Source: a virus. From it: 26,948 nucleotides of DNA. The DNA lies in IMG/VR virus record IMGVR_UViG_3300033148_004800, positions 1 to 26,948 of that record; one strand, given 5' to 3'. Under the pieces are notes generated by a model. The model was not told where the DNA came from. It searched no databases and was given only the letters and a program-made list of their open reading frames with translations. A program made the translations under genes and the position numbers. This document shows positions 16,263-26,363 of this stretch, one piece after another (position 1 is the first letter of the stretch; each line of letters starts with the position of its first letter).

Positions 16263-16333
16263 AAAAATTCCTTGGTCGGCAAGGCAGAGATCAGGTATAA
16301 ACCCAATCGTCTGCCCACCTGCCGACCAAGGAA
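16263..16333 (-). terminator. Rho-independent-type terminator after the capsid gene
   Basis: Perfect 14-bp inverted repeat (TTCCTTGGTCGGCA at 16268-16281 and its complement at 16320-16333) with an inner GGCAGA/TCTGCC pair. On the minus strand TTTTT follows immediately. It begins 7 bases after the capsid stop. Expected effect: partial termination so that scaffold and capsid messages exceed those for the tail and ejection genes. Confidence 0.85.
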
Positions 16334-16340
16334 GGTTATT

Positions 16341-22894: not shown

Positions 22895-23464
22895 TCATAT
22901 CGTTTTGGCATCTACGTCAAGCTCCTCATCTATTCTCTGTAGCCCTTCAGTCATCATAGACTGCATTGAGAAGTTGTTTTGGATATTTACTTGGGTTCCG
23001 TCACCACTACCTTCAGCTTTAGTTTTTTCTGAAAGTAGTTTTCTAAACCCGGACAAGTCAGCGAGTGCCAGACTTAACCGCCCACGAGCCATAACAGCAT
23101 TGATAACTTCACCACTGTGTTTTATTTCTATATCAAGTGCTGGGTTTGAGTCTGCTATTTTAGAGAGTATCCTAACATCTCGGTTTAGTCGGACGATCTC
23201 GCGTTGCATAGAATCATCGATTAACCTAGACATCGCCTCGGTGCTCGAAGGAGTTCCAGCGATTAGATCTAGGCCTCTTTGGTCAGCAACGTATTGGATC
23301 ACCTCCCTCATCTGAGTTTTAGATAAATCAACGTCCGGGTGTTCGAAGTCAAGGTCTACAGCAAAGGCTTCGATATCCCCATCTGCGCGATTTGCTGCGA
23401 CTATGACCCCGTGTGGCAGGGTGGTTACGCTGAACTCTTCAGTTTTTTCTAGTTCTTTAGTCAA
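22895..23464 (-). CDS. Hypothetical protein, possible small terminase subunit
   Basis: Protein of 189 aa starting at TTG 23464, inside the end of the Tad2-like gene, with GGGAAG ahead. It has an N-terminal beta part (VTTLPHGVIVAANRADGD), then a long helical region (TQMREVIQYVADQRGLDLIA, LNRDVRILSKIADSN), and a C-terminal QVNIQNNFSM segment. TerL usually has TerS just upstream, and several TerS proteins are helical oligomers ending in an N-rich strand like VNIQNN. Hence the suggestion, but a helix-turn-helix is not obvious and a terminator plus a lipoprotein gene lie between this gene and TerL. It is the last gene before that terminator. Confidence 0.7.
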   Translation of the reverse strand: MTKELEKTEEFSVTTLPHGVIVAANRADGDIEAFAVDLDFEHPDVDLSKTQMREVIQYVADQRGLDLIAGTPSSTEAMSRLIDDSMQREIVRLNRDVRILSKIADSNPALDIEIKHSGEVINAVMARGRLSLALADLSGFRKLLSEKTKAEGSGDGTQVNIQNNFSMQSMMTEGLQRIDEELDVDAKTI

Positions 23465-23696
23465 CTACTTCCCAATCTTCTGACATGATGTCAACGATTG
23501 TGCTGGCGTATGGTATTCTGCGGGTGCCTTCTTCACAATCTGGTATGGTAAAAAAAGGATACGCAAATGTCATTTTGCTATGCTCATCTGGAACTTGAAG
23601 TTCTAGGAACATCCCTTTACCGTTCCACCCTTTACGAGCTATTTTTTTGCCTTCTTTAAGTAATCTTAAAGCTAATCCAAAGTCTAATCTTTCCAT
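23457..23696 (-). CDS. tad2: DUF2829 / Tad2-family anti-Thoeris protein
   Basis: Protein of 79 aa (90 aa if it starts at ATG 23729). The start MERLDFGLALRLLKEGKKIA followed by RKGWNGKGMFLEL and the ending SEDWEVVD are the signature of DUF2829. Members of this family (Tad2) are known to bind and sequester the cyclic ADP-ribose-type signal made by Thoeris ThsB, blocking the host's abortive defence. The 23696 start has the better SD site (AGGAG, 5-base spacer) and matches the usual family N-terminus. The 23729 start has AAGGA. It sits among small genes beside a tRNA, a common place for phage counter-defence genes. Family recognition is strong; activity in this phage is inferred. Confidence 0.88.
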   Translation of the reverse strand: MERLDFGLALRLLKEGKKIARKGWNGKGMFLELQVPDEHSKMTFAYPFFTIPDCEEGTRRIPYASTIVDIMSEDWEVVD

Positions 23697-23750
23697 GTTT
23701 TCTCCTGTTGCTTCTACTGGTGTGCTCATTTTAAATCCTTGTGTCAAGTG

Positions 23751-24825: not shown

Positions 24826-24847
24826 GAAAAGTTCCGCAGCGAAAAGG

Positions 24848-24922
24848 TGCAGAAGGTTGGATTCGAACCAACACCATATCCCCTGATCAACGAGGCGCTC
24901 TGTCCAGTTGAGCTACTTCTGC
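24848..24922 (-). tRNA. tRNA gene with irregular anticodon arm (Ile-GAT possible)
   Basis: A 75-base cloverleaf on the minus strand. It has a perfect 7-bp acceptor (GCAGAAG/CTTCTGC), discriminator A, a D-arm GCTC/GAGC with GG in the loop, and a perfect T-arm GTTGG-TTCGAAT-CCAAC. The anticodon arm is poor: with a standard seven-base loop TTGATCA the anticodon is GAT (Ile), but two of five stem pairs fail and position 37 is C. An eight-base loop GTTGATCA on CCTC/GGGG is an alternative. CCA is not encoded (ACCT follows). It may be a functional odd tRNA, a decayed one, or an RNA-processing element. Confidence 0.7.
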
Positions 24923-24924
24923 AT

Positions 24925-24948
24925 AAAAAGGTGGAGGATTTTCACCTC
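24925..24948 (-). terminator. Terminator-like hairpin in front of the tRNA
   Basis: On the minus strand GAGGTG, a nine-base loop and CACCT are followed by TTTTT, ending two bases before the tRNA 5' end. The stem is short (5 bp plus one G-U). It would end or attenuate the leader RNA starting near 25203. Confidence 0.5.
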
Positions 24949-25203
24949 GCTGTGCTGTAACCTAAGTGCAGCTCTCCCCGACTAAATGGGGTAGTCGCGT
25001 TTACCCCGCCGGGTATATCTCGGGAGATGCCTTAGCTCAAGGCTGCTTCGATCTCCGTCGATTTCTTTACAGTTTTTTAACCGCAAAAACTGTCATCTCA
25101 AACAACGCCTAAGTTATCTGGTCACAAGCTGACCATCCTGACACAACCGTACAGGCACGTAGAACATCTTATTTTTAATCCCTCGAAGTCCCATGAGGTG
25201 ATA
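24949..25203 (-). ncRNA. Candidate structured leader or noncoding RNA
   Basis: Region between a strong leftward promoter and a terminator-like hairpin. Stems readable on the minus strand are TGGTCA/TGACCA (near 25125), ACAGTTTTT/AAAAACTGT (near 25085), GGAGAT/ATCTCC enclosing GCCTT/AAGGC (25023-25055), and a chain of mutually exclusive pairings between TACCC, GGGGTA, TACCCC and GGGG (24976-25015), overlapped by CGACTA/TAGTCG. The chain resembles an attenuator or antiterminator switch. No known RNA family is recognised. It does not match tmRNA: no TTCGAAT arm and no tag reading frame. Confidence 0.5.
25114..25194 (-). CDS. Possible 26-codon leader peptide
   Basis: Short frame starting about 9 bases after the predicted transcript start: MGLRGIKNKMFYVPVRLCQD, then GQLVTR and a TAA stop. 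No Shine-Dalgarno site precedes the ATG, so it would be a near-leaderless start. The stop lies just ahead of the alternative-pairing region, the arrangement of attenuator leader peptides, but there is no run of a single amino acid codon. It may be fortuitous. Confidence 0.2.
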   Translation of the reverse strand: MGLRGIKNKMFYVPVRLCQDGQLVTR

Positions 25204-25208
25204 CGCCC

Positions 25209-25236
25209 AGTATATATGGGATACCCCCTTTGTCAA
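25209..25236 (-). promoter_or_regulatory. Strong leftward sigma70 promoter with operator-like palindrome
   Basis: TTGACA (25236-25231), 16-base spacer, TATACT (25214-25209). The spacer holds the nine-base palindrome GGGTATCCC (25218-25226), which recurs exactly at 25360-25368 and in 8 of 9 bases at 25275-25283. A repressor at this site would cover the promoter. Predicted start near 25203. Confidence 0.75.
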
Positions 25237-25270
25237 TTTATTTTCCCTCTTTTTTCTCATAATCGTTTAA

Positions 25271-25395
25271 GTAGGGGATACCTTCTGGTAATTTACACGT
25301 AGGGAATATCTTCTGGTAATTTACACGTAGGGAATATCTTCTGGTAATTTACACGTAGGGGGATACCCTCTAGTTGTCTGGTAATTTACGCATGG
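25271..25395. repeat. 28-bp tandem repeats (iteron or operator array)
   Basis: Three tandem copies with an exact 28-bp period share CTGGTAATTTACACGTAGGG on the plus strand (25285-25304, 25313-25332, 25341-25360). A fourth, shorter copy with changed end starts at 25378. Each contains the palindrome GTAATTTAC (25288, 25316, 25344, 25381) and is followed by GGGAATATC or GGGATACC(C). The array sits 50-160 bases upstream of the leftward promoter. It may be an activator/repressor array or replication iterons. Confidence 0.85.
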
Positions 25396-25435
25396 AAATC
25401 TGTATGTGACTATGTTATTTGGAGTAGCTACATTC

Positions 25436-25448
25436 GGGGTCATACCCC
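25436..25448. repeat. Inverted repeat GGGGTCATACCCC
   Basis: Five-base arms GGGGT/ACCCC around CAT. It is close in sequence to the GGGATACCC elements of the promoter and 28-bp array, and may be a further, more widely spaced site of the same binding protein. Confidence 0.5.
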
Positions 25449-25467: not shown

Positions 25468-25609
25468 GAACACGCTATTAGTATTACTGTTAATCCTCTT
25501 CTCGTCCTACTCTGAGCTACTTATACTACATTCCTGAGGAACACGCTACTAGTATTACTTACAAGCTTGCTCTCGTCCTACACTGAACTACTTATACTAC
25601 ATTCCTGAG
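25468..25609. repeat. 71-bp tandem direct repeat, two copies
   Basis: Copy A 25468-25538 and copy B 25539-25609 abut exactly. Both ends of the unit are nearly identical (GAACACGCTAYTAGTATTACT and TCTCGTCCTAC...CTACTTATACTACATTCCTG), while an 11-base middle block differs. Each copy holds AGTATTACT and the perfect palindrome TTCCTGAGGAA at its border (25531-25541, 25602-25612), and TATACT. No protein is encoded. A regulatory array or origin component is likely. Confidence 0.85.
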
Positions 25610-25673: not shown

Positions 25674-25780
25674 TCCGAATGCTGACCACAAAAAACACTT
25701 CGTGTTTTATTGTTGAGTTTTGCGATTCCGGAGAGATCCGAATGCTGACCACAAAAAACACTTCGTGTTTTATTGTTGAG
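25674..25780. repeat. 44-bp direct repeat with hairpins, two copies
   Basis: Copies 25674-25717 and 25737-25780 are identical over 44 bases, beginning TCCGAATGCTGACCAC. Each contains the hairpin AAAACAC-TTC-GTGTTTT followed by ATT. A shared GCG..NCCGGAG follows both. AT-only arms and a short T-run make each a weak bidirectional terminator candidate; perfect conservation suggests recent duplication or selection. Translated frames across them only repeat one peptide and are not taken as genes. Confidence 0.8.
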
Positions 25781-26335
25781 CAGGGCGCTGCCGGAGTGCG
25801 TAGGATAACTGAGTGAAAATGTCATTGTATTAGATTGGAGCAGCGGAGGTTGGCCGAAATCAAGTGCATGAGATAAAGGGGGATTTTCGACGGTTAAAGG
25901 CGGAGCCTGGGTAGTTTGAACCCGCTACACTCAGAAAAGCCCTAAATCATTGAGGTTATTAAAGTTAATAGTAGTTGTAGTAGATGTAGTCAGTATAAGA
26001 GAAAGTATTCTATTTTATTATTTCTATATACCATTAATAGTGATATATACATTTATTATTATATGATCCACCATTTTTTACCCACTACACTGACTACATC
26101 CCGCCTCCCAATCTCAAAAAAGCCCTAAACTACTGACCTTTTAGCTCACTCAACGTGTAGTACGTGACGTGCAACATTCCGACTACATTTCCTTTTTTAT
26201 CCAACTCCTCGAACAAACTAACGTACAAGCCTCTTGATACCCTTCCTCCTCCCCTTCGCGCCTCCAACAAAAAAGCCCCTACATACTACATTTCCGCAAC
26301 ACCCAAACAATCTCAAACATTCCTGTCTAATTCTC
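25781..26335. other. Noncoding control region, possible replication origin
   Basis: No convincing gene. From about 25955 to 26080 the DNA is strongly AT-rich. This part is framed by a perfect 12-bp inverted repeat GATGTAGTCAGT (25983-25994) and ACTGACTACATC (26089-26100), and contains the imperfect hairpin TATATACCA/TGATATATA (26025-26049). An AAAAGCCCTA element occurs three times (about 25935, 26116, 26271, the last with an extra C), and ACTACATTYC several times. An AT-rich unwinding segment with flanking sites suits an origin, as inference. Confidence 0.4.
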
Positions 26336-26363
26336 TTGACAAGCATAGTCCCCTCTGTATAAT
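26336..26363 (+). promoter_or_regulatory. Perfect sigma70 promoter, rightward early
   Basis: TTGACA (26336-26341), 16-base spacer, TATAAT (26358-26363): both hexamers match consensus. Predicted start near 26370, giving a leader of about 30 bases to the ATG at 26399. It would be read by host RNA polymerase at once after DNA entry. Confidence 0.88.

Follow-up and report, generated by a model that had tools for sequence, protein, structure and literature searches.

A predicted structured RNA encoded directly ahead of a tRNA-like element in a podovirus-like phage

Background

In bacteriophage T4, the stable RNAs C and D, whose role is not known, are encoded in the tRNA cluster and co-transcribed with the tRNAs. 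The put RNA of HK022, which acts as an antiterminator in cis without a protein, is a short two-stem RNA. The RNA considered here, of about 280 nt, differs from put in this respect; it resembles the T4 RNAs in being a phage RNA predicted to be co-transcribed with a tRNA, although those sit inside a tRNA cluster.

GOLLD and ROOL are already known as large structured RNAs of phages or prophages, without known function, that often lie near phage tRNAs (PMC12286853). They share this placement with the present RNA, but are several hundred nt longer and of a different structure, and the DNA analysed here has no Rfam match to either. If real, the RNA would add to these a far smaller one, driven by a promoter and found in an unrelated podovirus-like phage. 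Its size would suit it to direct mutational tests, and the order RNA-hairpin-tRNA would be worth surveying across phages.

The window, that is, the whole stretch of DNA that was analysed, is IMG/VR virus record IMGVR_UViG_3300033148_004800, a fragment of 26,948 nucleotides. Its plus strand carries genes for a family A DNA polymerase and a RuvC-like resolvase, its minus strand those for terminase, portal and major capsid, a podovirus-like gene set. The structured-RNA region is on the minus strand, where it heads the small-gene and virion genes that follow downstream. The overall layout, promoter, about 280 nt lacking a convincing gene, T run and tRNA (Table 1), is real. Our preferred interpretation, for which we put the chances at about even, sees here a phage gene whose product, a structured noncoding RNA, is transcribed together with a tRNA-like element. 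It is probably a phage noncoding RNA that was not on record before. We favour an independent noncoding RNA because of its own promoter, its end-to-end closure, its adjacency to a tRNA and the parallel with an Rfam small RNA in another phage, L035.

Table 1. Features of the locus, with their positions in the window
Feature	Position	Strand	Basis
Sigma-70 promoter, TTGACA-16-TATACT	25209..25236	-	promoter scan, score 11/12
28-bp tandem repeat, 3.2 copies, immediately upstream of the promoter	25271..25360	.	repeat search
Predicted structured RNA, ~280 nt	24923..25203	-	folding; start near 25202 inferred from the promoter
TCACCTC, 5' strand of helix P1	25195..25201	-	mean pairing probability 0.96 with 24948-24942
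3' domain: hairpin GGAGAT...ATCTCC and four-segment chain, two competing forms	24972..25056	-	folding
GAGGTGA, 3' strand of P1; as GAGGTG also 5' arm of the terminator-like hairpin	24942..24948	-	folding
Terminator-like hairpin GAGGTG-9-CACCTT, T run 24929-24925	24925..24948	-	-6.2 kcal/mol, weak
tRNA gene, acceptor and T arms intact, anticodon arm abnormal	24846..24922	-	Rfam (49.1 bits), ARAGORN

Promoter and upstream repeats

The promoter named in the first-pass annotation is present as described. The match is unusual, because the window holds two sites scoring at least 11/12 while whole-window shuffles average 0.4, yet it is no proof of promoter activity. The second site, a perfect 12/12 sigma-70 promoter at 26336-26363 (+), faces the opposite direction, ahead of a 166-aa gene of no assigned family.

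The promoter spacer carries GGGGGTATCCC (25228-25218), the core of the 28-bp unit repeated in tandem immediately upstream; the repeat core GGTATCCCC is found again within the spacer. The 28-bp repeats are likely to be protein-binding sites, and this shared core in the spacer suggests that the promoter is under the control of a protein. Two more tandem repeats lie farther upstream, at 25468-25609 (71 bp, two copies, 86%) and 25674-25796 (63 bp, two copies, 90%).

Coding potential and folding

The absence of a real gene over some 280 nt, as first proposed, is upheld: a search of 25203-24923 (-) for a convincing gene found short frames only. Among ATG frames close to the 5' end, the longest has 26 codons and starts about 8 nt from the predicted RNA start, with no space for a ribosome-binding site. 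The strong structure claimed at the same time is also found, since the whole 281 nt folds better than shuffled sequences (-86.4 kcal/mol, z -2.53; equally stable shuffles, 1 of 200). When the whole window was scanned in 150-nt segments on both strands (260 in total), the core at 24976-25125 (-) reached z -3.90 and ranked fifth. Folding energy by itself is weak evidence, because several segments of coding DNA match these z values in the same scan.

End-to-end closure and the terminator-like hairpin

The predicted 5' end of the RNA complements a heptamer near its 3' end at all seven positions, forming a predicted helix, P1, that the first-pass annotation did not contain. P1 joins the first bases of the predicted RNA to the final stretch ahead of the T run, which speaks for a noncoding RNA; a closure of this kind arises in 77 of 5000 shuffles (1.5%), and we consider it more telling than the four-segment chain described below. 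P1 looks like an anti-Shine-Dalgarno sequence paired to a Shine-Dalgarno sequence. The predicted RNA start ATCACCTC, 25202-25195 (-), is identical to part of the bacterial 16S rRNA 3' end, GATCACCTCCTTA.

A hairpin with TTTTT two bases before the tRNA had also been noted. The T run does stand at that spacing, but the hairpin is weak and its T tract poor, two of the five T being consumed in the stem. With its loop of 9 nt, it was not reported by the terminator scan, which covered loops of up to 8 only. In the predicted folds, P1 and this hairpin are mutually exclusive through their common GAGGTG strand; the structure with P1 forced is at -86.4 and that with the hairpin forced at -82.7 kcal/mol, a gap of about 3.7. 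As modelled, the pair has the geometry of a switch, though the hairpin alone amounts to only -6.2 kcal/mol. The attenuator likeness proposed earlier survives in part: a competition exists, mainly between P1 and the terminator arm and not inside the four-segment chain.

This competition could be that of a cis-acting antitermination leader, in which P1 would tie up the terminator's 5' arm and allow readthrough into the tRNA and the small-gene/virion operon; a protein, a ligand or a ribosome opening P1 would favour termination, and the four-segment chain would tune P1. Such a leader is possible, if rather unlikely, and it remains a serious rival because P1 and the terminator hairpin share one strand exactly. 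Like known terminator/antiterminator leaders, the RNA would start right behind its promoter, and its closing helix is predicted to exclude the terminator arm; unlike them, neither a ligand class nor a credible leader peptide could be recognised here, and the terminator hairpin is a weak one. The operon indeed lies downstream on the same strand, as had been pointed out when control of the small-gene and virion genes was suggested. Control of the virion genes is at most putative, given the weak terminator and the nearest relative, L001, whose syntenic operon has neither tRNA nor such a leader. Also against a cis-acting leader, the predicted default is readthrough, and a perfect TTGACA at 24826, past the tRNA, indicates that the operon may own a promoter, though a good -10 is missing behind it.

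The four-segment chain

The earlier description had four segments pairing only with their neighbours in turn. All four are present on the minus strand, namely TACCC (25015-25011), GGGGTA (25007-25002), TACCCC (24993-24988) and GGGG (24979-24976), but the pairing is not exclusive, as the outer parts of the chain also pair with each other (CCCGGC/GTCGGG). Among 1000 dinucleotide shuffles, 2 had a comparable chain; this figure flatters because the criterion was chosen after the chain had been noticed. For the chain alone, the long hairpin that the outer pairing gives is predicted at -19.0 against -15.9 for a three-way form; with the neighbouring hairpin included, the values are -30.8 and -28.3, respectively.

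The same letters could act as DNA. The GGGGTA/TACCCC half-sites might form an operator for the protein that would bind the repeats and the promoter spacer, RNA pairing being a by-product. What makes this conceivable is that the window has 8 GGGGTA/TACCCC sites, of which 4 lie within 24988-25443; related GGTATCCCC sites occur in the repeats and the promoter as well. We hold it to be improbable: the half-sites in the RNA are not spaced as they are in the repeats, and P1, the other hairpins and the overall z are left unexplained.

The tRNA-like element and a possible route to the 3' end

The anticodon arm of the adjoining tRNA is a CCTC/GGGG stem without the normal 7-base loop, and ARAGORN assigns it a two-base anticodon and no isotype, a label given to 10 of the 580 tRNA calls of our comparison set, the window's own counted. 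Its D arm, read by eye, is of a kind that other loci have mainly in Arg-type tRNAs. The odd anticodon arm may reflect an erroneous base in this one metagenomic contig. ARAGORN found no tmRNA, and the tRNA is complete by itself.

RNase P reads the acceptor and T arms of a tRNA. If the region is a noncoding RNA gene, as we prefer, an RNA of about 250-280 nt would be made from its own strong, probably protein-regulated sigma-70 promoter and run into the tRNA-like element. Its 5' end would pair with its 3' end through P1, closing the RNA. The 3' end would arise either where the weak hairpin causes partial termination or where RNase P cuts at the 5' end of the tRNA, two bases past the T run, and either route would yield an RNA with a U-rich tail. 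From the sequence we infer its transcription, its processing and a role of its own; the simplest guess at this role is that of a regulatory or decoy RNA during infection.

One could go further and imagine a new class of small RNAs, cut by RNase P at their 3' end at a non-decoding tRNA-like processing signal and recurring as RNA-hairpin-tRNA units in unrelated phages. By analogy, mascRNA of MALAT1 follows a similar logic, a tRNA-like element serving there as an RNase P processing signal. We regard such a class as a long shot.

The same order in other phages

A simple filter that looked for a hairpin with a T-rich tail close upstream of a tRNA picked out 16 of the 580 tRNA calls. Several of these are pieces of the tRNA in front, and the window is not among the 16. 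The comparison set was picked by tRNA D-arm pattern and protein similarity and, being non-random, gives no frequency. Three entries have a plausible noncoding structured stretch. In L035, an RNA of the Pseudomonadales-1 family (RF03046, 118.6 bits) is followed by a hairpin with T6, two bases and a tRNA-Arg. In L012, a DUF3800-IX (RF02968) leader (z -2.58) is followed by a hairpin, five bases and a tRNA-Thr. L143 has a similar order and no Rfam match. Together with the lack of a convincing gene, this recurrence of the order in L035 and L012, and in similar form in L143, counts in favour of a noncoding RNA, as does the frequent placement of GOLLD and ROOL by phage tRNAs. Against it, the sequence likeness of the three RNAs to that of the window is not above chance.

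The L035 locus resembles ours in having a structured RNA, a T-run hairpin, two bases and a tRNA with the same D arm; it differs in its 164 model positions, its strong terminator hairpin (-13.5) and its normal tRNA-Arg. The L012 locus likewise places a structured leader and a hairpin immediately ahead of a tRNA, and its 3'-domain three-way junction is, by eye, of similar outline, but the RNA of the window gives no match to the DUF3800-IX model, and kinship by outline was dropped on that ground. A DUF3800 gene is absent from the window and from L012, but the window is a fragment and such a gene may lie past its ends. A tRNA linkage of RF03046 and RF02968 in bacteria was rejected: the figures were 0 and 2 of 398 genomes, respectively, and the two loci examined had no tRNA.

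The RNAs before the tRNAs of these two unrelated phages (L012:298-526 and L035:4035-4253) both contain GGGnGTAGCGTCCCG, which is absent from the window, and may form a single group not described so far. The Zobellviridae phage T4S1-k141_502596 (L176:341-600) has about 260 unannotated bases, unlike the window, abutting a tRNA-Arg-like sequence.

Searches for homologues

The first-pass annotation had found no fitting family and proposed an Rfam search. This assessment holds against the Rfam 15 covariance models: at the gathering score the tRNA is the sole match in the window, with none for T-box, riboswitches, tmRNA, group I intron, RNase P, 6S, GOLLD or ROOL. Permissive searches of 901 and 121 bases gave no other credible family on the minus strand. 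The Pseudomonadales-1 model has no match in the window, nor has that of DUF3800-IX, even at E 10 on 121 bases. A T-box, brought to mind by GGGGTA...CGCG, was dropped for want of a model match and of a UGGN bulge.

No DNA similar to the RNA region was found in phages or plasmids beyond the tRNA arms, and viral contigs contain none of its 20-mers in exact form; a profile search of 146 loci gave a best E of 0.37. The closest relative is L001, whose terminase is 68% identical and whose small genes are syntenic; although a fragment, it covers the corresponding stretch. The RNA feature is not conserved in this nearest known phage, because L001 has no tRNA and no comparable structured leader (best z -1.68 over the corresponding 900 bases). 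Searches through the terminase, portal, capsid, polymerase and small leader gene reached distant phages only; among those scanned, none had a similar RNA, and only L005 and L012 had a tRNA. Phages with a similar tRNA-Arg were rejected as relatives, their upstream stretches being unrelated.

A collinear motif, GGATTAAAAA...AGATGTTCNAC, is common to the window and L143, with an equal score in 3 of 300 shuffles. We rejected it as a sign of homology and attribute it to chance: among 257 Gb of bacterial and archaeal genomes it turned up 24 times, never within 800 bases of a tRNA, and 23 of these occurrences lie inside open frames of at least 199 codons.

The lack of a homologue, the absence of both RNA and tRNA from L001 and the similar z of coding segments all weigh against a noncoding RNA. 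They could instead mean that the stretch has no function, its fold having arisen by chance between a phage promoter and a tRNA in decay; the abnormal anticodon arm would agree with this as well. We think this very unlikely in view of the near-consensus promoter, a core z of -3.90, and a closure and a chain that appear in 1.5% and 0.2% of shuffles, respectively.

Other features of the window

Inside the small-gene operon, a Tad2-like gene (23457-23747, minus strand; PF11195, E 9e-19) is likely to encode an anti-Thoeris counter-defence protein. An inverted repeat at 25983-26100 (15 bp, 93% complementary, fold z -3.2), with an A+T-rich loop, is possibly a replication origin or a regulatory site. 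Immediately 3' of the major capsid gene, a very strong hairpin at 16263-16335 (-) is followed by TTTTT (z -6.5 in one fold test and -9.1 in the 150-nt scan); it is probably a terminator or attenuator among the virion genes.
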